Under the pieces are notes generated by a model. That model was not told the origin of the DNA and made no database searches. It was given only the letters and a program-made list of their open reading frames with translations. DNA of 64,000 nt from Antedon mediterranea (Eukaryota > Echinodermata > Crinoidea > Comatulida > Antedonidae), in assembly GCF_964355755.1 (NCBI RefSeq), contig NC_092670.1, positions 40,349,795 through 40,413,794 of the forward strand, in the 5' to 3' direction. The position numbers and the translations under genes were made by a program. This document shows, piece after piece, positions 3,831-61,852 of the stretch (the stretch's first letter is position 1; the number at the start of each line of letters is the position of its first letter).

Positions 3831-3984
3831 CAGATGGAAAATAACATAAAATTACAAATGAAATATTTAAAAACATTTTTATTCTTTCATTATTGTTTTA
3901 ACATTCCCAATGTATTACTGTTTTAGTAATGTCAAGTTTATCATTGTATTTTCATAGTTGTATTTTATGTTGTGTGTAATATGA

Positions 3985-5486
3985 TTAAATGTGAGTCATC
4001 CCTATTAAATGTGAGTAATCCCTATTAAATGTGGGTCATCCCTATTAAATGTGAGTCATCCCTATTAAATGTGAGTCATCCCTATTAAATGTGGGTCATC
4101 CCTATTAAATGTGAGTCATCCCTATTAAATGTGAGTCATCCCTATTAAATGTGAGTCATCCCTATTAAATGTGGGTCATCCCTATTAAATGTGAGTCATC
4201 CCTATTAAATGTGAGTCATCCCTATTAAATGTGGGTCATCCCTATTAAATGTGAGTCATCCCTATTAAATGTGAGTCATCCCTATTAAATGTGGGTCATC
4301 CCTATTAAATGTGAGTCATCCCTATTAAATGTGAGTCATCCCTATTAAATGTGGGTCATCCCTATTAAATGTGGGTCATCCCTATTAAATGTGAGTCATC
4401 CCTATTAAATGTGAGTCATCCCTATTAAATGTGAGTCATCCCTATTAAATGTGAGTCATCCCTATTAAATGTGAGTCATCCCTATTAAATGTGAGTCATC
4501 CCTATTAAATGTGGGTCATCCCCATTAAATGTGAGTCATCCCCATTAAATGTGAGTCATCCCTATTAAATGTGAGTCATCCCTATTAAATGTGAGTCATC
4601 CCTATTAAATGTGAGTCATCCCTATTAAATGTGAGTCATCCCTATTAAATGTGAGTCATCCCTATTAAATGTGAGTCATCCCTATTAAATGTGAGTCATC
4701 CCTATTAAATGTGAGTCATCCCTATTAAATGTGAGTCTTCCCTATTAAATGTGAGTCATCCCTATTAAATGTGGGTCATCCCTATTAAATGTGGGTCATC
4801 CCTATTAAATGTGAGTCATCCCTATTAAATGTGAGTCATCCCTATTAAATGTGAGTCATCCCTATTAAATGTGAGTCATCCCTATTAAATGTGAGTCATC
4901 CCTATTAAATGTGAGTCATCCCTATTAAATGTGAGTCATCCCTATTAAATGTGAGTCATCCCTATTAAATGTGGGTCATCCCTATTAAATGTGGGTCATC
5001 CCCATTAAATGTGAGTCATCCCTATTAAATGTGAGTCATCCCTATTAAATGTGAGTCATCCCTATTAAATGTGGGTCATCCCTATTAAATGTGAGTCATC
5101 CCTATTAAATGTGAGTCATCCCTATTAAATGTGAGTCATCCCTATTAAATGTGAGTCATCCCTATTAAATGTGAGTCATCCCTATTAAATGTGAGTCATC
5201 CCTATTAAATGTGAGTCATCCCTATTAAATGTGAGTCATCCCTATTAAATGTGAGTCATCCCTATTAAATGTGAGTCATCCCTATTAAATGTGAGTCATC
5301 CCTATTAAATGTGAGTCATCCCCATTAAATGTGGGTCATCCCCTAAAAAGAAAACAAAGTATAATAATAAAATGTGGGTCATCCCTATTAAATGTGGGTC
5401 ATCCCTATTAAATGTGGGTCATCCCTATTAAATGTGGGTCATCCCTATTAAATGTGGGTCATCCCTATTAAATGTGGGTCATCCCC
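3985..5486. repeat. 20-bp minisatellite, about 68+6 units, with AP-1 heptamers
   Basis: Tandem unit CCTATTAAATGTGAGTCATC. About 68 units run from 3985 to 5343, then a 30-bp interruption (CTAAAAAGAAAACAAAG...), then about six more units (5372-5486) followed by the same interruption sequence again. Most units carry TGAGTCA; about 14 carry TGGGTCA and a few other point variants occur. Variants recur at 60-bp intervals in the left part (4021-4380), indicating higher-order amplification. The array lies within intron 3 of FReD copy 1. Confidence 0.97.
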
Positions 5487-10900: not shown

Positions 10901-13900
10901 TCATGATACTCCAGTCCACTGTACTGATGTATACACAAGTGTGTCTTGTTTATCTAGTGAACATATAATCACCGTTTTCCTGACATTGGAAGCCATGCGG
11001 CCAAACTGCACTAAATCACGCGCACTAAACAGCTCACAATGAGGGCGACAGATAGCAATGTAGGAGGAGTGGAATAGCAACGGGTTACCTGAGGGGAAAA
11101 AAGAAAATTTGTAACATTATTTATTGACAAAATGTATTTATTATAATTTATAAATTCAAAGGAAAGATACTGAAAAAAATCTCAATGGGAATACAAATGA
11201 AATAAGCAAACAGCAAGAAATAAAGTGCCAAGCTTTCAGAAAACACTATTCCTTTGTCAGGGCTATTATTATATTTATAAAGATATTATTAAACCTACAA
11301 ACGTGTTACTACTGTACCTGGGTAAACTAAAAAGTCACCTCCAAACTTTCCGCCACTTGTCAAGAAGTAGCCTTTCTCCCAGAAATCCTTAAAGACGCGG
11401 AATCTCAGCCAATCCGTTTCTGTTGATGGGTAGTTCCATTCATCGACGGGGTGTTTACTATAGTTGGTAGCACCTACAAATAAAATATCAAGTGGAAATC
11501 ATTAAAAATACAAAATGTTTCTTCTTACAAATAAATAAGAAGCAGGGAAGGATCCTTGGACGTAGCGCTTGGTCCCCTTGACAGCTAGAATGACATGAAC
11601 TACTTTTTGATATCTAGTTTTGACAGACTGTCAATATTACTATTAATATGTCAGCATTCCTCAATTAAAAAATCCTGGATCCACCCCAGAGAAGGGTTGT
11701 CTATATTGTATAATGTAAAAAGAGGGTGGCAAGTGGGTAGGCCTACAATATGAGGGAATCTATAAAGCTAAGAGAAAGGTCTACTGAGGAGGAAAAAGAA
11801 GATATTGATTAGTGGAGGGTGAGGTGAGATGCAATAACAAATTGCTTTTGTCTTACTTGTTGGTAGGTGTATGAGGCATCCTTGATTAGCCTTGCTAATA
11901 CTGGTTTCTTCCTTTTCATCCACTTTGAACAATTCACATTTGTTCTTAGGTTCTGCTTCTTTTGTTGAATAGTTTATATTACATGGTGTGTCTACATCTT
12001 CATTTTTGTTACTTGTTTTATCTTCAGTTAATTTTAAATGTCCATGCTTTGAAATATCAACTTGGCTTCTTTCCTCAAATTCTTTGGTCAACTCTGTTTT
12101 GTCTTCATCTTTATTTTCATCTATGATTTTTTGTCTTTTGACATGTTCTTCTGAATCAGTATTATCTCTTTCTCTTTTGCCATATTTGGTGATTTCTTCT
12201 AAATCATGATCGATAGTAGGATGTTTGTCAATATTCTTTTCTTTTTGTTCAACTACCTGTGTTGTTATAGAACAAGTATTAGACAAACAATCATATATTG
12301 AATCTTTAACTTCTTCCTCAGTAGGTTTATTTGAAAACAATTCTTCAACGACCTCATTAGATTCTATTTTCCTGGCTACTTCCTCTTTCGTCTTTCCACT
12401 CAGCATCATTTTTCTACTCCTTGCTCTCTCCTTTCTTATAGTTTTCTTCTTTTTTGCATGATCTGCCTTATTTTTATTTAAAAATTCCACTTTCTTTGAT
12501 TCTTTTTCTGACTGCATGATCTGTTTCTAAAATGAAAAATTGATAATGATAACACAGATGGAATAACATCAAGGAATAGACTCACATTTTAACAGATATT
12601 AAGCTCTGTCTACACTATCAAACTAGTGTGATGTACCCAAATATTGTAGTGATATGTCTAAATATGGTAGTGATATGACGTTACCATGTCCATATATAGG
12701 CACATCACATTTTTTGTCACATAAAGGTTGATAGTGTAGACAGAGCTTTAGTCTTGTAAAAGTTGACGATTTTAAATAAAGTAGAACTTCCAAACCTGTT
12801 CTGAGAAACTTTTCAATCTATCCTCCTGATACTTGTGCACATCTGCAGCTGTTGGAATTTTGACTTTTATATTTATAATCCTTGCCACACCTACAAAAAT
12901 TAAATATTCATACTTTTTTTTTAACGTTATATTACCGGCTCTTTAAAAAATTTTAAAAATTGGGAGAAACATGAAGTAATCTGGAGAGTTGGTACCAGCA
13001 TAGGAGGAAGTATATGGTACGAGAGATGGATTCAGGATGTTAGAAAATAAGAGATCCTACTTTCTTACAAATATAATGCAGGTGGGAAAGCCACGATTTT
13101 TTGAAATCGTACAATTTTTTTCTTTCGTCCAACCAGCAGTGAGCATTAATGATCTTGCTTGAAAACGGATAACCGAATCATGCTCGATGTGAAAGCTCGC
13201 TCAACGCTCGCGATATTTTTCTCAGGGCATGTGAAAGTAGCTCAACTCTGGTTAGTACTGTTAGGGTGCTGGTATGAGCTTATCATTCTTTTCCTTCTTC
13301 ACTTTCCTTCCTTTTTCACAGCACTTTCAAAGAAAGAAACCATTTAATGAATGTATTAATAAAGTGAAAATAGTAATACCATATTCTATCAGGACAGCTG
13401 CTTCTTCTGGCATAAGTTGAAGAGGAAGACCAAGCTGCAAATTCTGATGTGGTGCTCTTGGTAGGCAACCGATTAGCTTTCCAACAATGTTGTGTTTTTC
13501 TCGAATCGTTTTTACATCTAAAAAAGAAAGCAATTTATTCAATCAGATGTAAATTAATTTTTATGCGACATAACTAAACGGAATAATTTTTTTGATACTA
13601 GAGTAATTAACAAGTGGAACTCGCTGCCCGAATCTGTTGTCAATAGCAAGAGTGTAAATTCATTCAAAAACAAACTTGACAAATACACACACATACACAC
13701 ATATGAGAGAAGAGGCTCCCTACGAGTTTAAAAACTCATTGCCTCTTAACTTTACTAAAGGTAAGAATTACTAAAGGTAAGAATAATTACTTGTCGGTTG
13801 ATTATTAATATTTTTTAAAATTGATTATTTAATTGAAATCTAATCTAGGCTAGCCTATTAATACACAACATTTGAAATTAAAATGAAAACAAAACATTGT

Positions 13901-14462: not shown

Positions 14463-24973
<10,511 letters not shown>

Positions 24974-48600: not shown

Positions 48601-51600
48601 AATACCTTGGATGGGAGTTCATGAATATTCAACATCCGATCCTAAATATTCAGGTCAGAACCTTTCTACATTTGTTAGTATGATAAATTATTTTTAAAAG
48701 CATGCCACAAGCCATAATGCTTTATAATTAAAATAGCTGCCTGCAAACACACAACCACTACCCCCAATCCTCTTTCCTAAATAATGCAAAAGAGAGGACA
48801 TTTGATTAAATTAAGCACCCTTTAAAAATGTTATGGTTAGGCTTTCCCACCCCGGTCTAATAAATGATATAGACCAGTTACTGGGAACTGGTCAAAACTC
48901 TCACTAGCCCAGCGGCACAAGGTAAATTAAGAAACTAGTAAATATTAAAAGGAAATACATTTCAATAAGTACTATAAAGTAATGTACCTTAGCTGACACA
49001 GATCCTCTACCTGCTATGTGTCTCCTGTCTCTTTCTTCGATCCTTTCGGTTTGTAAGACGATGAATTCTGTGAGCTGTTTGTACGTGCAAAGACTGCTGA
49101 ATGGATTTTTCCAATACATGTTGCTTGGTACATCAGCAGCTAAATAATAACAAATCTCAAATATTATTAAAGTAATCAAAGCTCAACAGGAGCTGAAACC
49201 ATCGTTCATTTGAATACTCAGAATTTAAATAAAATGTGAACAAAATTCTTTGGAAGTCTTAAGGGGTGAAACGAATAATGTGGAATATATATTTCAACAC
49301 TATGACTGACCTCTACACTATGACCGACCTCTACACTATGACCGACCTCTACACTATGACCGACCTCTACACTATGACCGACCTCTCTTTAATTAAGGGA
49401 CCCCATTATTAAGAAGACACTTTGTTGCTTTTGGACTCAAGTGGAAACAGGTTTTTAACTTTTCTTGGCATTCCTCGTAATCTGTTTTTTATTTGTACAA
49501 TTGTTTCTGTATTATTTCTATGTTGTTGATTTTAACCTTGATTACCAAATAAAGAAATTTAAAAAAAAAAGAAAAAAAATCAAGTTGATAAGGGTTCTAT
49601 AGTATGAAGATTTGTTTATCAAACTTTATGTGAAAAACAAGTCTGATATTCCCACATATGGTAGAGATGTCATTGTGTCAAACTAGTTTGATAGTGTAGA
49701 CAGAGCTTGAAACGTGGATTCCACTAACGACGCAAGGACGTAAAGCAACGCATGTGAATTGACCAATCACAAGCGATGGCTTATTCGCTTGTGATTGCTA
49801 ACTGTCTATAACTTCGCTTGTCATTGGTTAAAACGCTTGCGTTGCGTTTACGTCCTTGCGTTACGTTCTAGTGGGAACCAAGCTTAAGAGTGAGTAGAAT
49901 GTAGAATAACATAACATGTCACTCACTTTGAAGCGTTGCTGGATTGATGAGTGAGATGCTGTTGGACACTTTAGTACAAATACATAGTTGCCCTAGGTTA
50001 CCGATGCTGCCTGCAAACTTCTTAGATAAACACACAATGTCTTCCTACAAAAAAAAACAAAATTTAAGCCATTTTGAACATTTTAGCCTAATAATATATA
50101 AAGCAGAAAAAGAAAGGATAAAGTTAATTTAATATTTGTCATTTTCTTTTACACTTATTAACATATCCTTCAATTCAACATGTTCTCAATTTAAAGAAAT
50201 GATAATCACAACCAAGTGGCATGTATAATGATAATCACAACCAAGTGGCATGTATAATGATAATCACAACCAAGTGGCATGTATAATGATAATCACAACC
50301 AAGTGGCATGTATAATGATAATCACAACCAAGTGGCATGTATAATGATAATCACAACCAAGTGGCATGTATAATGATAATCACAACCAAGTGGCATGTAT
50401 AATGATAATCACAACCAAGTGGCATGTATAATGATAATCACAACCAAGTGGCATGTATAATGATAATCACAACCAAGTGGCATGTATAATGATAATCACA
50501 ACCAAGTGGCATGTATAATGATAATCACAACCAAGTGGCATGTATAATGAGAATCACAACCAAGTGGCATGTATAATGAGAATCACAACCAAGTTGCATG
50601 TATAATGATAATCACAACCAAGTGGCATGTATAATGATAATCACAACCAAGTGGCATGTATAATGATAATCACAACCAAGTGGCATGTATAATGATAATC
50701 ACAACCAAGTGGCATGTATAATGATAATCACAACCAAGTGGCATGTATAATGATAATCACAACCAAGTGGCATGTATAATGATAATCACAACCAAGTGGC
50801 ATGTATAATGATAATCACAACCAAGTGGCATGTATAATGATAATCACAACCAAGTGGCATGTATAATGATAATCACAACCAAGTGGCATGTATAATGATA
50901 ATCACAACCAAGTGGCATGTATAATGATAACCACAACCAAGTGGCATGTATAATGATAATCACAACCAAGTGGCATGTATAATGATAATCACAACCAAGT
51001 GGCATGTATAATGATAATCACAACCAAGTGGCATGTATAATGATAATCACAACCAAGTGGCATGTATAATGATAATCACAACCAAGTGGCATGTATAATG
51101 ATAATCACAACCAAGTGGCATGTATAATGATAATCACAACCAAGTGGCATGTATAATGAGAATCACAACCAAGTGGCATGTATAATGATAATCACAACCA
51201 AGTGGCATGTATAATGATAATCACAACCAAGTGGCATGTATAATGATAATCACAACCAAGTGGCATGTATAATGATAATCACAACCAAGTGGCATGTATA
51301 ATGATAATCACAACCAAGTGGCATGTATAATGATAATCACAACCAAGTGGCATGTATAATGATAATCACAACCAAGTGGCATGTATAATGATAATCACAA
51401 CCAAGTGGCATGTATAATGATAATCACAACCAAGTGGCATGTATAATGATAATCACAACCAAGTGGCATGTATAATGATAATCACAACCAAGTGGCATGT
51501 ATAATGATAATCACAACCAAGTGGCATGTATAATGATAATCACAACCAAGTGGCATGTATAATGATAATCACAACCAAGTGGCATGTATAATGATAATCA

Positions 51601-54600
51601 CAACCAAGTGGCATGTATAATGTATTACGGGAAACAATGTCAAATAAAATTATGAATGAAGGAAATTTAATTTAATGTAAAAGATCAAAAGTCAAAAAGT
51701 TAATTCAATTAAAGTACCAAATTGAAGGGTGATACATAGGTAATACAGTACATAGACATGATAATGTGTGACCTTTTGAGGTCAAGATGGACTAGGCAGA
51801 AATGTCTGGGAGTGTGAATAAGGAAGGAGACACTATGTCTGATTTGGTAAAATATTTTATAAGGGTTTTAAATGTTATCAATGTGACATAATGAAAGTAT
51901 CAGCTACACATGTGTTGGAATTAAATACTAAAGTCTATTTTGATGTTTGACAAGAAACATAACATGTATGATGATATTAATAGTGACAAGGTACTATTGT
52001 AAACCACTTGGATTGTGTGACAGCTCACACCTATTGCCAATGGACAAGGCAGGCACATGTAAAAAATATTATAGAGGGCGCTATTCACAAGTAAGAAAAT
52101 GTTACGTACCTTACAAACTGGTGAGATCTCGACAGAAAATGTGTACTTGTAATTGTAAGTATTATTGTGGATGTCATGAGAAATCAACCTTTGTGAAGTT
52201 TTAAATCTGTAAAAAGAGATTCATCTATATATTTGTTCCTTGTGGAAACTAATATCACAAATCAAGCCATGTCTACTCCAGCATACTTTACTAAACTTTT
52301 ATTTGCAAATTTGCATCACTGTTTAGACAGTTTTAAAACTACAATCTCTGTTACTACAGACTGACATTTTGTCCTGCAAGATCACATGACTACAAAGAAT
52401 GTGATTCAATTGGCTACTAAGTTCACAAACATCAGCAAACTATTGTCAAGAAACTGCATGGACTAACTTTTTTAAAGCAGTTTACTAACGTTTGCTAAAG
52501 ATTGTCAACTGGTCTACACTAGAAAACTTTTTTTGCTAAAATAATAGTTTGTTCATTCAATCTCAAATAATGATAAAACTGCCTTTGTCTTGAATTTTAT
52601 TAGTTATACACTTAAAAAAACCTCAAGCGTCTTACCTGCATGGAATAACCGATGATAAGAACTCTACCAGCTTGCGGGCATTATCTTTAGAAGCAAAGTA
52701 GAAGTCTAGGCCCCCATCATGTTGTTTAATGTTCAAAGCTTTGCTGTGGCTACGATGCTTCAACATTAACTGTTCTACGTAGAAGAAGGTCTTTTTGTGT
52801 GTTGCCTAAATAGAGATATGCAACAGTTTAAACAATACATATCTCAATTTGTATTAACATAATATTTATAAATTCTAAATTAGAAAGAAAATGCCATTGT
52901 TCTCCCAAAGCCGGTTTTTACAAGCAAGACGTAATTTTTAATAACCAGAATCAAATTTCTTTAAACCGGTATCAAAAATGGTGAAAGAAAATATAACATA
53001 GAATAAACACACTTGTTTAATAGTGATAGGCTTAACCATTAACACATTACACAAGAGATGTATAAGTACAATATAGTTGATGTTTCTACATTTAGATACA
53101 TCTTATTCTTATATAACTTAAGTTCTGTCTACACGATCAAACTAGTTTGATGAAAAAAAAGTGTGATCTGCCTAAATATGATAGTAATGTGACATCATCC
53201 TGTCCATATATGGGCAAATCTCATTTATTTGTCACATAAAGTTAGAGTGTAGACAGAGCTTTAGTATTTGGTACATTTTCAATTCTATACATCAAATTTT
53301 CTGAAATTTATCTCTAAGTTTGCAGAACACTGAATACTACAACAAACAAAACCTTTTGTCTAATTTGAACAACCGCTTTCCAGAAATCCTTTGCTTCAAC
53401 TCGATGACAATCGTCACACATCTGATAATTAACGGTGAACTCTACGACAAACACCTGTTGTAAAACAGCGCCACCTAGCACTTCTTTCTGTATCGTCAGC
53501 TTGACTTTGATTCTTTTTGAGTGAGGTTCGGTCCAGACAAACGACGCATCGATCAGAGTCACCTTCTGGAGTCCTTTGAGCTTCTTGAGTAAAAGAGCAA
53601 GTAGTTCACGGGATTCCAAAGAACAGCTTACCCAGTGAGCAGGCGGCTGTAAATACCTAATGAAAAAACAAAACTTGATAACAATTGAGAGATTGATATA
53701 AAACATAAAAAAAATGAATTATATTTGAAATATTTGTTTAAACACTTTTTTTAAATAATGGTAGTGTATTCTATTGTTTATGTAGGAGTATTTTAATTAT
53801 CCTTGAATTTAAAATCTTATTAAAAACATGTCTTTGGAATTTGTTGGAAACTCAAACCAGGTTTGAACCTAGAACTCTGCAACCAGTAGCACTAACATCT
53901 TCTCAACCACAAAACTCCGAACTTTCGGACAAGAGAATGGAAGGTTAAGGGCGACTCACCTTTCGCATGATTTACAGAAGTAGATAGTTGCTTGTTTTGG
54001 GATTCCTTCGGTGATGTCAACCTGCGTCCGCATGCACGCAACACACATGTTGGCTGGATTTGGGGCGATTGGTGTCTCACAAAGACAGCATAAACTAGAA
54101 ATTATTAAAAAAAATTAATTAATAATATTAATAATGTAATTTAAATTTGTAAACAGGCCTATGCTACTAATCTATTAAAAACTATGAGAGGAGGTAGCCT
54201 ATACGAGTAATACTCTTTGCCCCCTTATTTCACAAGAATATATAATATATCTACAGTACAGAGTAGCAAACCAGACTGAGCCTGACTGACCCTCACTCAG
54301 GCTGAGAATACTGCTGACTGATTTACTATAAAATAAATAAATAAATTTGTAAAAATAAATAGAAGTTCGTTTGTAGATCTAAACTTATCCAGATATCCCT
54401 CCTACACACTACAAAAGCCTAAGGCCCTAGCTAGGCTTAGTCTACTTTGGTACGTCGGGAAGGGAAACTGCAGTGACAGACCTGTGTGTGAGACAGCTGC
54501 AGCTCCTGCTGTTAAAACATATAAAATAGGGCCTAGCCTAGCTAGGCCTAACTAGGGAATGGTAGAAGTTAATAGTTTAAATATATAAATGAGCAATAAA

Positions 54601-56406: not shown

Positions 56407-57492
56407 ATGGAGGAGAATAACGATAAGAACAAGACGTGCAGTGTGTTAAGTTCCACTTACAATGGACGTCCTTACTTCATCAATGCAGACGGACAACATG
56501 TCGTCACTAAATGCTGGGAAGTCCAGGGTGGAGATAAAGTGATTCGGTAAGTCATGGGTTGTTTATGGTTATCAAAATCGGCATTTATTTTTCTTTATTT
56601 AGTCATTCTTTCAATGTTTTTCCAACTCATTTTTTCTCTGTATCCGTAAGTTATAGTTTATATATAAAGCCTGTTTTCCTGTCGACGTTATTCGACCCTA
56701 TCGTCGTTGATCGTTAACAGTTCAACGACGATCGTTTGAAAACGATCAAGTTGAAACGATAACGATAGCGAGTACCTTTTCCTGTAAATCGTTAACATTT
56801 CAATGTTTACGTAAAAGATTTCCGATTATTGTTAACGATAGCAACGAATAACGTCGACAGGAAAACAGGCTTTACTTCCAGGAGGAGAACTCCACATTGT
56901 CGACAAAAAAATGAATACAGTAACATTTCTAAGGTATCAATAGTTTTTACATGAAATAAAAAAAACCCTAAACAGTTACTGAATATATTACAATCCCACG
57001 TATACTGTGCATTCATTGAACGTACATTATAACATCATTATATAATGTATATAACATTATCACATCGACACCTTCACACATGATCGTTGACAACAAGCAA
57101 AGTACTGCATGCAATGGTGGACTAATGGGAATCTTCCTTGTTGTTTTAATGCTCAAAAGAAGATGAACTTTTCCTCGCACTCGCCAAAAATGTAGTACCG
57201 TGAATATACATTAAATTATTTAAAATATATAAAAATAATATGGTTGAAATCATGCTAGTAAAAACATTTCGACATGGATGAGGTTACAAGGATTGGACAA
57301 GGATTAGATATTGTTGCTATAGGCCTAATAGTAACTTCTCAAAAGCACACTTCGCAGTATAAAATATTTTTTGTACATGACCCTAACGAACGTACGCGAT
57401 AACCAGAGGTAGTGTTTGTACGTTGCGGATACAGGATACAGATACAGAAATGAGCTTTTCTTTGCACTTGCCAAATTATAGTAGGCCTCAGT

Positions 57493-57551
<59 letters not shown>

Positions 57552-60500
57552 AATAAGAATACAAAAACATGATCATGGTTGAAATATCAGCAGCATAATA
57601 ATCATGGTGGTAAAAAATAATGGGAACAAATAGGAATTCTGTGAAAAATGTTGTACACTAGGATTTGATATGTTTGTTGTTTTCTATAGAAAGAGCTTCC
57701 TGACACCCGCCAACAGCAGTAACTATAACCTACATTAAAAATACAAAATATACAGAGTCTGTAAAAAAGGATATACAATACTTTGTTATTATCATTGATG
57801 TTATTATATCCACTTAGGCGATCCTAGAACCAGCAATTATTAGAAAAGCTTGATGATAAAACATTATTGCATGTCGATAAAAGATAATAGTGTCAATTTT
57901 GTTGTTAGCGTAAAAATAATACAAAACAGTGAACAATACAAGGATGGTTAGTGCTATTCTAAGATGGCTGCCATCTCAGATTATTACAAGGATGGTTAGT
58001 GCTATTCTAAGATGGCTGCCATCTCAGATTATTACAAGGATGGTTAGTGCTATTTCTAAGATGGCTGCCATCTCAGATTATTACAAGGATGGTTAGTGCT
58101 ATTTCTAAGATGGCTGCCATCTCAGATTATTACAAGGATGGTTAGTGCTATTTCTAAGATGGCTGCCATCTCAGATTATTACAAGGATGGTTAGTGCTAT
58201 TTCTAAGATGGCTGCCATCTCAGATTATTACAAGGATGGTTAGTGCTATTTCTAAGATGGCTGCCATCTCAGATTATAAATAACGCGATACTATTACGGT
58301 AGAACCTCTAATAAGAGGTAATGACGGTTAAAACATATTTCCCCTTCTTCGTTTTTACGGTAAAGTGTCCCCTTATAGGGATTCCCCTAAATAGTGATGT
58401 CAGAATATGGAGCTAGGTTCTACTGTGTAGCGATAATCAATGTAAAATAATAATCAAATATATAATAACTCACAATTATACTACTGTGGTGTATTATCTT
58501 AAATAAAAATAATATATTCTGGTCATTGTGGGAATTTATAATAAGGAAGGGGTTCGAAGCCTGTCTGAGGTTAAGATTTAAGAAAACTGTGTAGGCCTAG
58601 CTGTGTAAAAGGGATTCGTCTTTCTACAAAAGAGGAAACATGAGCTAGGCTAGTTTAAACAGGGCACTTCGCGGGGTGGGGAAGTGAGGGTTGGGGAAGT
58701 GAGGGTTGGGGAAGTGAGGGTTGGGGAAGTGAGGGGGCGGGGCTCGTTCGAAGTTTGTGTATATGTTTTGGAGGGGACGTGGAGTTTTCGGCACAAACAG
58801 AATGTTATATTAATATGTGCTTTATTTCGACAGCATGGAATGAACAATACAATAGATAAGTACGGCTAATAACACGTTAATCTCCCATGGCACCTACTAT
58901 AGTCCGCCGATGAGTCATTAACTATTATAATGCCTAATAAAATGGCTGTACAAGAAATAGATCAATGTAAATATGTATTGAATGGTTTTCCAATTTATCA
59001 TCATACAGGTCACAATTGCTTGAAAAATATTATTATTAAATATTTAAAATCGAAGTTAGCCATCACAGTTTCCTAAACCCGAACAATTTAAAATTTAACT
59101 TGACGTGAGATAAGGACTTGCGCGAAACATGTGTAATTTGACCAATCAGGTGACGGATCACCGAAAGTGTTGTGATTGGTCAGGACTTGCGGTGCGCGTA
59201 CGTCCTCCTTGCGCGTTGCTTCCTTCTGATATCATTGCCTCGCGTGTCACACGCGTGTAACATAGTAATTGCTCTCCACCCCTAGTGTCTAGTACCATTC
59301 ATATATGTTTAGATAGCGCAGAATGCTCTTTAATATTTTCCAAATACTGTTGTATTTTATGACAATCACTGTGCATACGATTAAACAAGTAATTGGTTTT
59401 GTTTCAGGGCGATCTTGCTAATCTGTCATGACGTTGCTGAGCATTGTCTGCGATACGAGGCCTTTGCAGAAGAAATAGTTCACAGGCGAATTCAAGTATA
59501 CTCACATGACCACGGTAAGGTTCATTCATTGGTGGCCTATATTGCAAAACGTGATGGAGTGGAAGTGGAATGATTTAATAGCCAAAACTAACTTTCCATG
59601 CCCCCCCCCCCCCAATAATTTTGGGTAAGCTACATCAATAACAATGCAGAATGATTTAGTTTAATAAATTGGCCAAATGTGCAAATTATTACCATTCACT
59701 TTTCCCTGTTGATTACGAAGAATAAAGCCTACATTTAATATTATTAATTATAATTTAATTTCTTTATTTGTTATCGCTTTTTAGTTGGGCACGGAGGTAG
59801 TGAGGGTGTGGCAGTTGACATTCTTGATTTTAAAACATATGTTAGAGACACGCTTCAACACATCGATATTATCAGACAAATTCACTCTTACGCTAAAATA
59901 TTCATATTGGGACATGGTATGGTAAGTTATCGTAAATATAAAGGTTTGTCCTCAGCTCACAGCACAGGACGCCGCGCACAACGCACGCACGTCACACGCA
60001 CTGGTGTACGTGCACTGTGACCAATCACAAGATGTCCAACTATAAGATATGTTACAGTGTAGATAGAACAACTTGTGAACGAAGATTTAACATCATTAGA
60101 CCACTCACAATTTCATTTAAAAAAAAAAATAAATAAAATAAAAACAGACTTTTTGTTTTTAACAAAGGGCGGTACAATAGCTATCAAGGCGGTGCTGTCA
60201 AGACCTAAAGAATTCGCTGGATGTGTGCTAATTGGTCCTGCTATCACACCTACTCCAGACCAAGCGTCCGCTTTTTCGGTTTGTTACATTTTACGTTACG
60301 TTCAATATTTTTTAATTTATAGCACTACCCATGTGTATGTACGTGTATACATCATAACATAGTGGGCAATACTGCATTTGTAACATCACCACTAATGGGT
60401 AATAAGAACACATTTTTATCTAATCATAAACTTAGATGGTAAATTAATCTACGTCTGATAAGTCAGATGACTATCCATCACATGATCAATTAATGTTATT

Positions 60501-61852
60501 TGTTATTGATTTTTTTAGCAATTTATCGACAAGACAGCGGCGTCGTTTGCACCTCTATTCGGTGTTACCAAGATAGATCCAGATTCATTAAGTTCGCATC
60601 CTAAAGAGGTAAATTAATATGAATGGCACGCCTAACTTTTTAAACGTTTGTGAATGGGGAATACATTCTAGTGAGGTGTTGTGTGTACTGTATGTCATGG
60701 TGTTTCCAAAAGAAAATAAAGTACTGTAGATCCAAAGATGACCATGATTAAATTTGATTTCCTCTTCAACCCACAATGACCAATCACAAGCGACAGTTTG
60801 GATGATCCATCGTGTCGTGATTGGTCAATTACCTGCGGTGCGCGTACGTATACGCGCTTTTGCGTTGCGTCCAAAAGTGGTGAGAAGAACCAAGCTTAAT
60901 AAGTTACACACCCGGCTTCTAAAACACATCGATACATTCGTCAAATTTATTTATTTTTTTATGTAGGCTACCGCAACTTCTTTTGTATGTCTTGTATTGT
61001 ATACTATCTCATGTTTAGATGAAACGAATACAGAACACCATCATCGACAACAAATGACGCGACGGACCCAATGACATACTGACATATGTTTCTTGTTTGA
61101 ATTAGATAGTAGATTACATCCAAGACCCTCTGGTGTATCACGGCAGACTACGTGCGAGACACTGCGTCATCTTCATGGAGGCCATGGAAGAACTCGAGCG
61201 AAAGATCTACAGCATTGACTGGCCGTTCTTTGTTCTACACGGTGAACGTGACAAACGATGCTCACTCGAAGGCTCAAAACTTCTATTTGAGAAGGCAAGT
61301 AGTATGGACAAAAAATTTAAGGTAGGCCTATATATATTTTTACGCATGATGCGCTAATATTTTATGTTTTAAAGCTTGGTTCCCACTAGGACAATGCACG
61401 GACGTATACTGCAACGCAAGCCAGTTGCCAACGCAAGCGACAGTTCGAATAATCCATCGCTTTTAATTGGTCAAATCAATTACGTTGCGCTTACGTCATT
61501 GCGTTGCGTCCTAGTGGGAACCAAGCTTTACGTCGTTTTACGTTTTCCTAAAGGCGTACTTTTTATGCACAATAATGCCTTTACGTTACTTTTTCCAATT
61601 TGGACACAACCCATTGACGTCGGAGCGTGTTGACCAATCACAAACGACAATTCTGGTGATCGTGTCGTGATTGGCCAAACTACTTGCGACATCCTGGGAA
61701 CTTAACCAAGTTGTATTGATTTTGCGGCATGCACTATTTTTTTGTGATTTCAGATTTACCCTGATCAACGTCACTCATTGCATCACGAGGCTCCTGAGAA
61801 AGCTGAAGTCGTCAAGGGTGACATTGTAGCCTGGTTGGTGAAGAGGATTTAG
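56407..61852 (+). CDS. monoglyceride-lipase-like alpha/beta hydrolase, catalytic Ser replaced by Gly
   Basis: Seven coding exons: 56407-56546, 59408-59514, 59785-59921, 60168-60278, 60519-60608, 61106-61321 and 61754-61852. They join to 900 nt (299 aa; human MGLL 303) with all phases closing. Family features: YFINADGQHVVTKCWE near the N-terminus, SHDHVGHGGSEG (79-90), the elbow ILGHGMGGTIAIKA (123-136), VLHGERDKRCS with Asp244, and YPDQRHSLHHEAPE with His274. Human MGLL has Ser122/Asp239/His269; here Asp and His sit at exactly +5, but position 127 is Gly (codon GGT, 59916-59918). The oxyanion loop HGAGEH is HDVAEH (54-59). MGLL cleaves monoacylglycerols; this copy should lack that serine-hydrolase activity. 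It may be a pseudoenzyme retained for another role. Confidence 0.92.
56667..56872. mobile_element. MITE family C, 206 bp with 28-bp perfect TIRs
   Basis: The ends AAGCCTGTTTTCCTGTCGAC (plus 8 more bases) are mirrored perfectly, with TA on both sides. The interior is rich in AACGAT/ATCGTT words. It lies in MGLL-like intron 1. This is the only copy in the window. Confidence 0.88.
57497..57547. repeat. (TA)n microsatellite
   Basis: About 25 TA dinucleotides in MGLL-like intron 1. Confidence 0.97.
57936..58277. repeat. 48/49-bp minisatellite, seven units, with inverted YY1-like pairs
   Basis: The unit contains ACAAGGATGGTTAGTGCTAT and AAGATGGCTGCCATCT. The AAGATGGC motif starts at 57961, 58009, 58058, 58107, 58156, 58205 and 58254. 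The first two units lack one T. It lies in MGLL-like intron 1. Confidence 0.96.
58672..58736. repeat. 15-bp tandem repeat GGGGAAGTGAGGGTT
   Basis: Four units, G-rich on the plus strand, in MGLL-like intron 1. Confidence 0.92.
59105..59222. mobile_element. MITE family B, degraded copy
   Basis: AATTTGACCAATCAGGTGAC opposite GTGTTGTGATTGGTCAGGAC, with GTGCGCGTACGTCC and CTTGCGCGTTGC. MGLL-like intron 1. Another fragment (GTGACCAATCACAAGATG) lies near 60017 in intron 3. Confidence 0.65.
60775..60898. mobile_element. MITE family B, partial copy
   Basis: AATGACCAATCACAAGCGAC opposite GTCGTGATTGGTCAATTACC; the right end AAGAACCAAGCTTA is present and the left terminus is lost. MGLL-like intron 5. 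Confidence 0.72.
61372..61528. mobile_element. MITE family B, complete copy
   Basis: TA on both sides of AAGCTTGGTTCCCACTAGGA...TCCTAGTGGGAACCAAGCTT, 157 bp. It defines the termini of the family. It lies in MGLL-like intron 6. A degraded relative follows at about 61600-61705 (TTGACCAATCACAAACGACA; GTCGTGATTGGCC). Confidence 0.92.

Follow-up and report, generated by a model that had tools for sequence, protein, structure and literature searches.

A Full-Length Monoglyceride Lipase Paralogue without the Nucleophile Serine in Antedon mediterranea, a Probable Pseudoenzyme

The locus and its gene model

The window, by which we mean the whole 64,000-nucleotide stretch of DNA that was analyzed, corresponds to positions 40349795-40413794 of contig C1 in the Antedon mediterranea assembly (354 Mb, 18 contigs). 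It carries a gene related to monoglyceride lipase (MGLL) that consists of seven coding exons on the plus strand (56407-61852). As the initial annotation had described, the exons join into 299 codons with no internal stop codon. The joined length is 900 nt including the stop, and all six introns have GT-AG borders. Exon 1 (56407-56546) is an open frame that provides the start codon, encodes MEENN...FINADGQHVVTKCWE, ends at a GT donor, and matches the first exon of a paralogue found on contig C9. Exon 2 (59408-59514) encodes the oxyanion loop HDVAEH (residues 54-59), exon 3 (59785-59921) ends with the nucleophile elbow GHGM, exon 4 (60168-60278) begins with GGTIAIKAVLSRPKEFAG, exon 5 (60519-60608) encodes what we take to be the lid region, and exon 6 (61106-61321) contains Asp244, the counterpart of human Asp239, together with a Pfam Hydrolase_4 match. 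Each of these five exons has AG/GT borders and the same length as its C9 counterpart (107, 137, 111, 90, and 216 nt, respectively). Exon 7 (61754-61852) follows an AG border, encodes His274 (human His269), terminates with a TAG stop, and is shorter than exon 7 of the C9 gene, which encodes a charged tail. The region 59785-60278, on which the initial annotation was centered, comprises exons 3 and 4 and the intron between them. A processed or decayed pseudogene was rejected as a description of this locus, given that introns are present between the seven exons and that 299 codons are read without a stop.

Several other features share the window. The minus strand at 52632-53718, which is upstream of the MGLL-like gene, carries exons of NMD3, a protein that acts in the export of the 60S ribosomal subunit (Pfam NMD3, E = 1.7e-33 and 8e-16). 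Five minisatellites are located at 3984-5485, 21413-22088, 24206-24636, 50198-51622, and 57937-58277, with units of 20, 47, 39, 29, and 49 bases, respectively, present in 7 to 75 copies with 95-99% matches. In addition, the 21-base word CTACACTATCAAACTAGTTTG occurs with up to two mismatches at 12610, 20194, 33170, 49679, 53129, 62100, and 62900, and was absent from shuffled sequences. At the last three of these sites, GTAGACAGAGCTT follows some 100-150 bases after CTACACTATCAAACTAGTTTG and is, by eye, the inverted form of the letters that precede CTACACTATCAAACTAGTTTG; the pairs resemble a short inverted-repeat element.

Descent from the MGLL lineage and the canonical paralogue

The best PDB match of the window protein is the monoglyceride lipase 3pe6, which we take to be the human protein (residues 15-298, E = 1.4e-56). 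Twenty distinct sequences were matched in this search; the top seven are all entered as monoglyceride lipase or MGLL protein at E values near 1e-56, and the next match has an E value of 9e-35. The window protein scores 210 bits against Pfam Hydrolase_4 (E = 4e-62), and the protein encoded on C9 scores 243 bits. In a tree built from three animal rows (the window protein, the C9 protein, and human MGLL) and 38 of the 80 prokaryotic relatives described below, the animal proteins are grouped with support of 100/100, and within this group the window protein is sister to the C9 protein, apart from human MGLL (98/89). The named outgroup did not form one side of a branch in this tree, which leaves the animal group unaffected. 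Based on these comparisons, the window gene is assigned to the MGLL lineage by descent.

The initial annotation had suggested looking for a second paralogue with a canonical GHSMG elbow, and such a gene is indeed present on contig C9 (7087836-7094329). Its six introns are identical to those of the window gene in position and phase, and exons 2-6 are equal in length. Since introns lie at matching places in the two genes, the pair would have arisen by duplication at the DNA level and not by retrocopying. The C9 protein ends in a Lys/Glu-rich tail of ∼60 residues (encoded within 7094039-7094329), which is missing from the window protein and from the matched part of human MGLL. The two proteins are identical at 132 of 294 aligned columns. 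At fourfold sites within identical amino acids, 27 of 45 differ, and the NG86 method gave a dN of 0.49 and no dS value, the synonymous sites being saturated. The low identity and the synonymous saturation together indicate that the duplication is old.

Genome searches with the window protein and with the C9 protein revealed no third MGLL gene, although a missing match is not equivalent to absence. The sole further match in the search with the window protein was a stretch of contig C8 at 4178818 (E 0.396). Other Hydrolase_4 matches were considered as paralogues and rejected. The nearest one downstream, at C1:40415631, would have been a tandem copy; it reads GRSLGG, has one weak stretch in common with the window protein (E 0.19), and is presumably ABHD13-like. 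Two matches on contig C8 read GHSLGG and are assumed to be ABHD4/5-like, and a match on contig C11 has only a chance-level stretch in common with the window protein (E 1.1).

Active-site losses and conservation

The catalytic triad of human MGLL consists of Ser122, Asp239, and His269 (numbering from PMC9198976, in excerpt). The initial annotation had aligned Ser122 with Gly127 of the window protein, and we obtained the same alignment. Codon 127 is GGT (59916-59918, plus strand), the elbow reads GHGMG, and the corresponding residue in the C9 protein is Ser125 (TCT). With the elbow Ser of the human protein numbered 122, Asp239 and His269 align with Asp244 and His274, at the proposed constant offset of +5. 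A tblastn search of the whole window with the C9 protein found no alternative exon encoding GHSMG; each of the best 20 rows was either one of the seven exons already described, at E values no higher than 0.018, or noise, which began at E 3.8. At the RNA level, A-to-I editing could change codon 55 from GAC to GGC at most, and a Ser codon would not result from GGT. The reading of codon 127 comes from a single assembly, and an assembly or sequencing error, or an allele specific to the individual, would mean that the true gene encodes an active lipase. We find this highly improbable. Two adjacent bases differ from the C9 codon TCT amid identical close flanks (GGACAT before, TATGGG after), a single wrong base could produce GGT only from an original AGT, and the change at Gly55, which is 72 codons upstream and in another exon, would require a separate error.

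This second change, at the oxyanion loop, had been put forward in the initial annotation as the replacement of HGAGEH by HDVAEH. The reading itself is correct and the substitution of Gly55 by Asp is unusual. However, the next two letters mean little, because the canonical C9 protein, with HGISEH, also varies at these positions (Ile and Ser). At the same two sites, among the best 80 of at least 174 prokaryotic relatives, the human Ala is found in none and the human Gly in 26. In human MGLL, Ala51 and Met123 build the oxyanion hole with their backbone NH groups (PMC9198976, in excerpt), as do Phe-29 and Met-98 in a bacterial MGL (PMC3829422, in excerpt), and therefore the side chains that follow the loop glycine may vary. 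With the change of Gly to Asp as the one unusual substitution, the oxyanion argument is weaker than originally stated.

Conservation was assessed in an alignment of 80 prokaryotic relatives with the window protein, the C9 protein, and human MGLL. The prokaryotic sequences are the best 80 of at least 174 confirmed relatives, which were drawn from at least 591 pattern matches using two search patterns that leave out both the elbow and the oxyanion-loop HG. For ten of the 80, the translation continued through a stop located at residue 280 or later, and those positions were set to X. Both the elbow Ser and the Gly of the HG position are present in every one of these best 80 of at least 174 relatives, as well as in the C9 and human proteins; with the ten masked rows removed from this best 80, the count is 70 of 70 for each residue. 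In viral contigs, 48 stretches fitted the patterns, and not one of them codes for a relative. One MGL relative, with 34% identity to the C9 protein, comes from a contig that is labeled as a metagenome assembly of Klebsiella pneumoniae; its nearest rows in the tree are bins of Myxococcales and Hyphomonadaceae, with weak support (78/87), and the species label is possibly a binning error.

We defined core columns as those conserved at 90% or more in the best 80 of at least 174 relatives and occupied by the same residue in human MGLL, which yielded 27 columns. The C9 protein differs at none of these, and the window protein differs at exactly two, Gly55→Asp and Ser127→Gly. Cut-offs of 85% (32 columns) and 95% (21 columns) gave the same two differences and no others for the window protein, whereas the C9 protein differs at one and none, respectively. 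The chance that two random losses among the 27 columns would both fall on human positions 50, 122, 239, or 269 is 0.017. This co-location at catalytic positions is suggestive only, as the catalytic set was fixed after the losses had been seen, though its members had been named in the initial annotation, and a single gene is concerned. By alignment, then, the window protein lacks two of the features of an active monoglyceride lipase that were examined, the nucleophile Ser and the HG glycine.

Lid and acyl-channel positions were also compared, and several of them differ from human MGLL in both the window and C9 copies. Across 37 human positions, the human residue is present at 21 in the window protein and at 22 in the C9 protein. 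Since the two copies match human about equally, the acyl channel, outside the head-group site, is not specially preserved in the window protein. All nine of human positions 53, 54, 57, 58, 121, 194, 239, 269, and 272 are kept in the window protein. These include Arg57, His121, and Tyr194, which line the polar cleft of human MGLL (PMC9198976, in excerpt), and Tyr58, His269, and His272, which together make up the aromatic cluster responsible for keeping the enzyme open (PMC7595040, in excerpt).

The retention of Asp244, His274, and the head-group residues could also reflect a changed chemistry, in which the Asp-His pair serves as the general base for water or some other substrate, or a substitute nucleophile is used; despite the absence of the Ser, ABHD5 is reported to have protease activity (PMC9694394, in excerpt). 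This explanation is very unlikely in our estimation. The HG glycine, present in all of the best 80 of at least 174 prokaryotic relatives, has been lost, which speaks against a working oxyanion hole, the human S122A variant is inactive (PMC7595040, in excerpt), and a candidate nucleophile was not identified from sequence alone.

Retention of the gene and comparison with known systems

The branch leading to the window protein is 0.92 changes per site, as compared to 0.37 for the C9 protein (38 prokaryotic and three animal rows). A relative-rate count gave 37 unique changes in the window protein and 23 in the C9 protein, a difference that is not significant (chi-square 3.27). We also applied a crude decay model that counts nonsense, splice, start/stop, and frameshift changes (0.05-0.15 indels per substitution), in which all rates are assumed. 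Under this model, the probability that an unselected gene still has an intact frame is 5% once 0.017-0.030 neutral changes per site have accumulated. An intact frame would thus survive for only a short time without selection, and decay, if any, would be recent, within about 2-3% neutral divergence. Because the gene is old and its frame is intact, it must have been under selection for most of its history.

These results bear on the possibility that the gene is dying, that is, that its product was a working lipase until a short time ago, that drift then abolished catalysis, and that stops or frameshifts have yet to accumulate. The longer branch and the continued presence of Asp and His agree with such a history, and a loss dating back less than about 0.02-0.03 neutral changes per site is expected to leave the frame intact. 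However, random recent decay should spread over the core, and here the damage is confined to two catalytic positions and leaves 25 of the 27 core columns, as defined from the best 80 of at least 174 relatives, in place. Moreover, both sites are two bases away from the C9 codons (TCT to GGT and GGA to GAC), so that each would have taken more than one step if the ancestral codons were like those of C9. We consider a dying gene unlikely, though it deserves some weight.

Our preferred reading, which we hold to be probable, is that the window gene is a full-length MGLL duplicate whose product no longer hydrolyzes esters but is retained in folded form. Apart from its overstated oxyanion argument, this agrees with the pseudoenzyme proposed in the initial annotation, in that the nucleophile and the HG Gly are lost from an old and intact paralogue that exists beside a canonical GHSMG copy. 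Several points count against it. The longer window branch also fits relaxed selection, the Pfam score is lower (210 versus 243 bits), and the catalytic loss could, under the decay model, be recent. The lack of special preservation in the acyl channel and the simulations of human S122A described below count against it as well.

In the MGLL mechanism, Ser122 carries out the attack after activation by His269 and Asp239 (PMC9198976, in excerpt). Because the nucleophile Ser is missing, an acyl-enzyme would not be formed in the window protein, and monoacylglycerol would not be cleaved through this mechanism. Human S122A is inactive, yet NMR shows it in the open form and its dynamics in hydrogen exchange are close to those of the wild type, whereas D239A is markedly more dynamic and destabilized; simulations in the same source favor a closed S122A form, contrary to its NMR (PMC7595040, in excerpt). 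We offer this difference as a reason why the nucleophile may be dispensable for the fold and the Asp-His pair may not. The probable reason for keeping the pair is its part in maintaining the open, lid-gated fold. In that case the window protein would retain the ability to bind a monoacylglycerol-like or fatty-acyl ligand, or a partner, and its role would be a lipid-binding or regulatory one. That it functions as a buffer, sensor, or partner, for example to the active C9 protein, is a guess drawn from ABHD5, which regulates lipid breakdown although it is not a conventional lipase. A wider version of this proposal is that a lineage-wide invertebrate pseudo-MGLL exists, an old duplicate that is now a non-cleaving monoacylglycerol binder and that buffers or senses 2-arachidonoylglycerol, the signaling lipid degraded by MGLL, or controls its active sister. 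We put this forward tentatively, as a possibility that is rather less likely to be right than wrong.

Among the open-access papers listed in literature searches, none was seen to describe an MGLL-branch pseudoenzyme, and the motif strings of the window protein had no match. If the preferred reading is true, the coexistence of an inactive and an active MGLL would provide a natural test of whether non-cleaving proteins read or buffer monoacylglycerol signals, and a clean case of nucleophile loss with retention of both the Asp-His pair and the head-group site.

Among known systems, human MGLL (PDB 3pe6, 3hju, and 3jwe) has in common with the window protein its descent, length, Hydrolase_4 domain, triad Asp and His, and head-group residues; it differs in that its nucleophile Ser and oxyanion-loop Gly are replaced by Gly and Asp, respectively, in the window protein. 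The engineered human S122A variant likewise has the nucleophile removed with Asp239 and His269 present (PMC7595040, in excerpt), but is a laboratory mutant with Ala instead of Gly and an unmutated HG glycine. ABHD5 (CGI-58), a regulator of lipid metabolism, is also an alpha/beta hydrolase in which the Ser of GxSxG is replaced (Asn153 in human) and Asp301 and His327 are kept (PMC9694394, in excerpt). It belongs to a different branch of the fold and has a different replacing residue, and by analogy would be the closest functional parallel of the window protein. Unlike the window protein, ABHD5 has known partners. In the NDRG family and in the neuroligins, the nucleophile is replaced by Gly. Both are non-enzymatic proteins that, like the window protein, have the alpha/beta hydrolase fold with catalytic residues replaced (PMC7022630, in excerpt). 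In NDRG3, however, all of the triad residues are replaced and helices block the pocket (PMC7022630, in excerpt), whereas the window protein keeps the Asp, the His, and the head-group residues.
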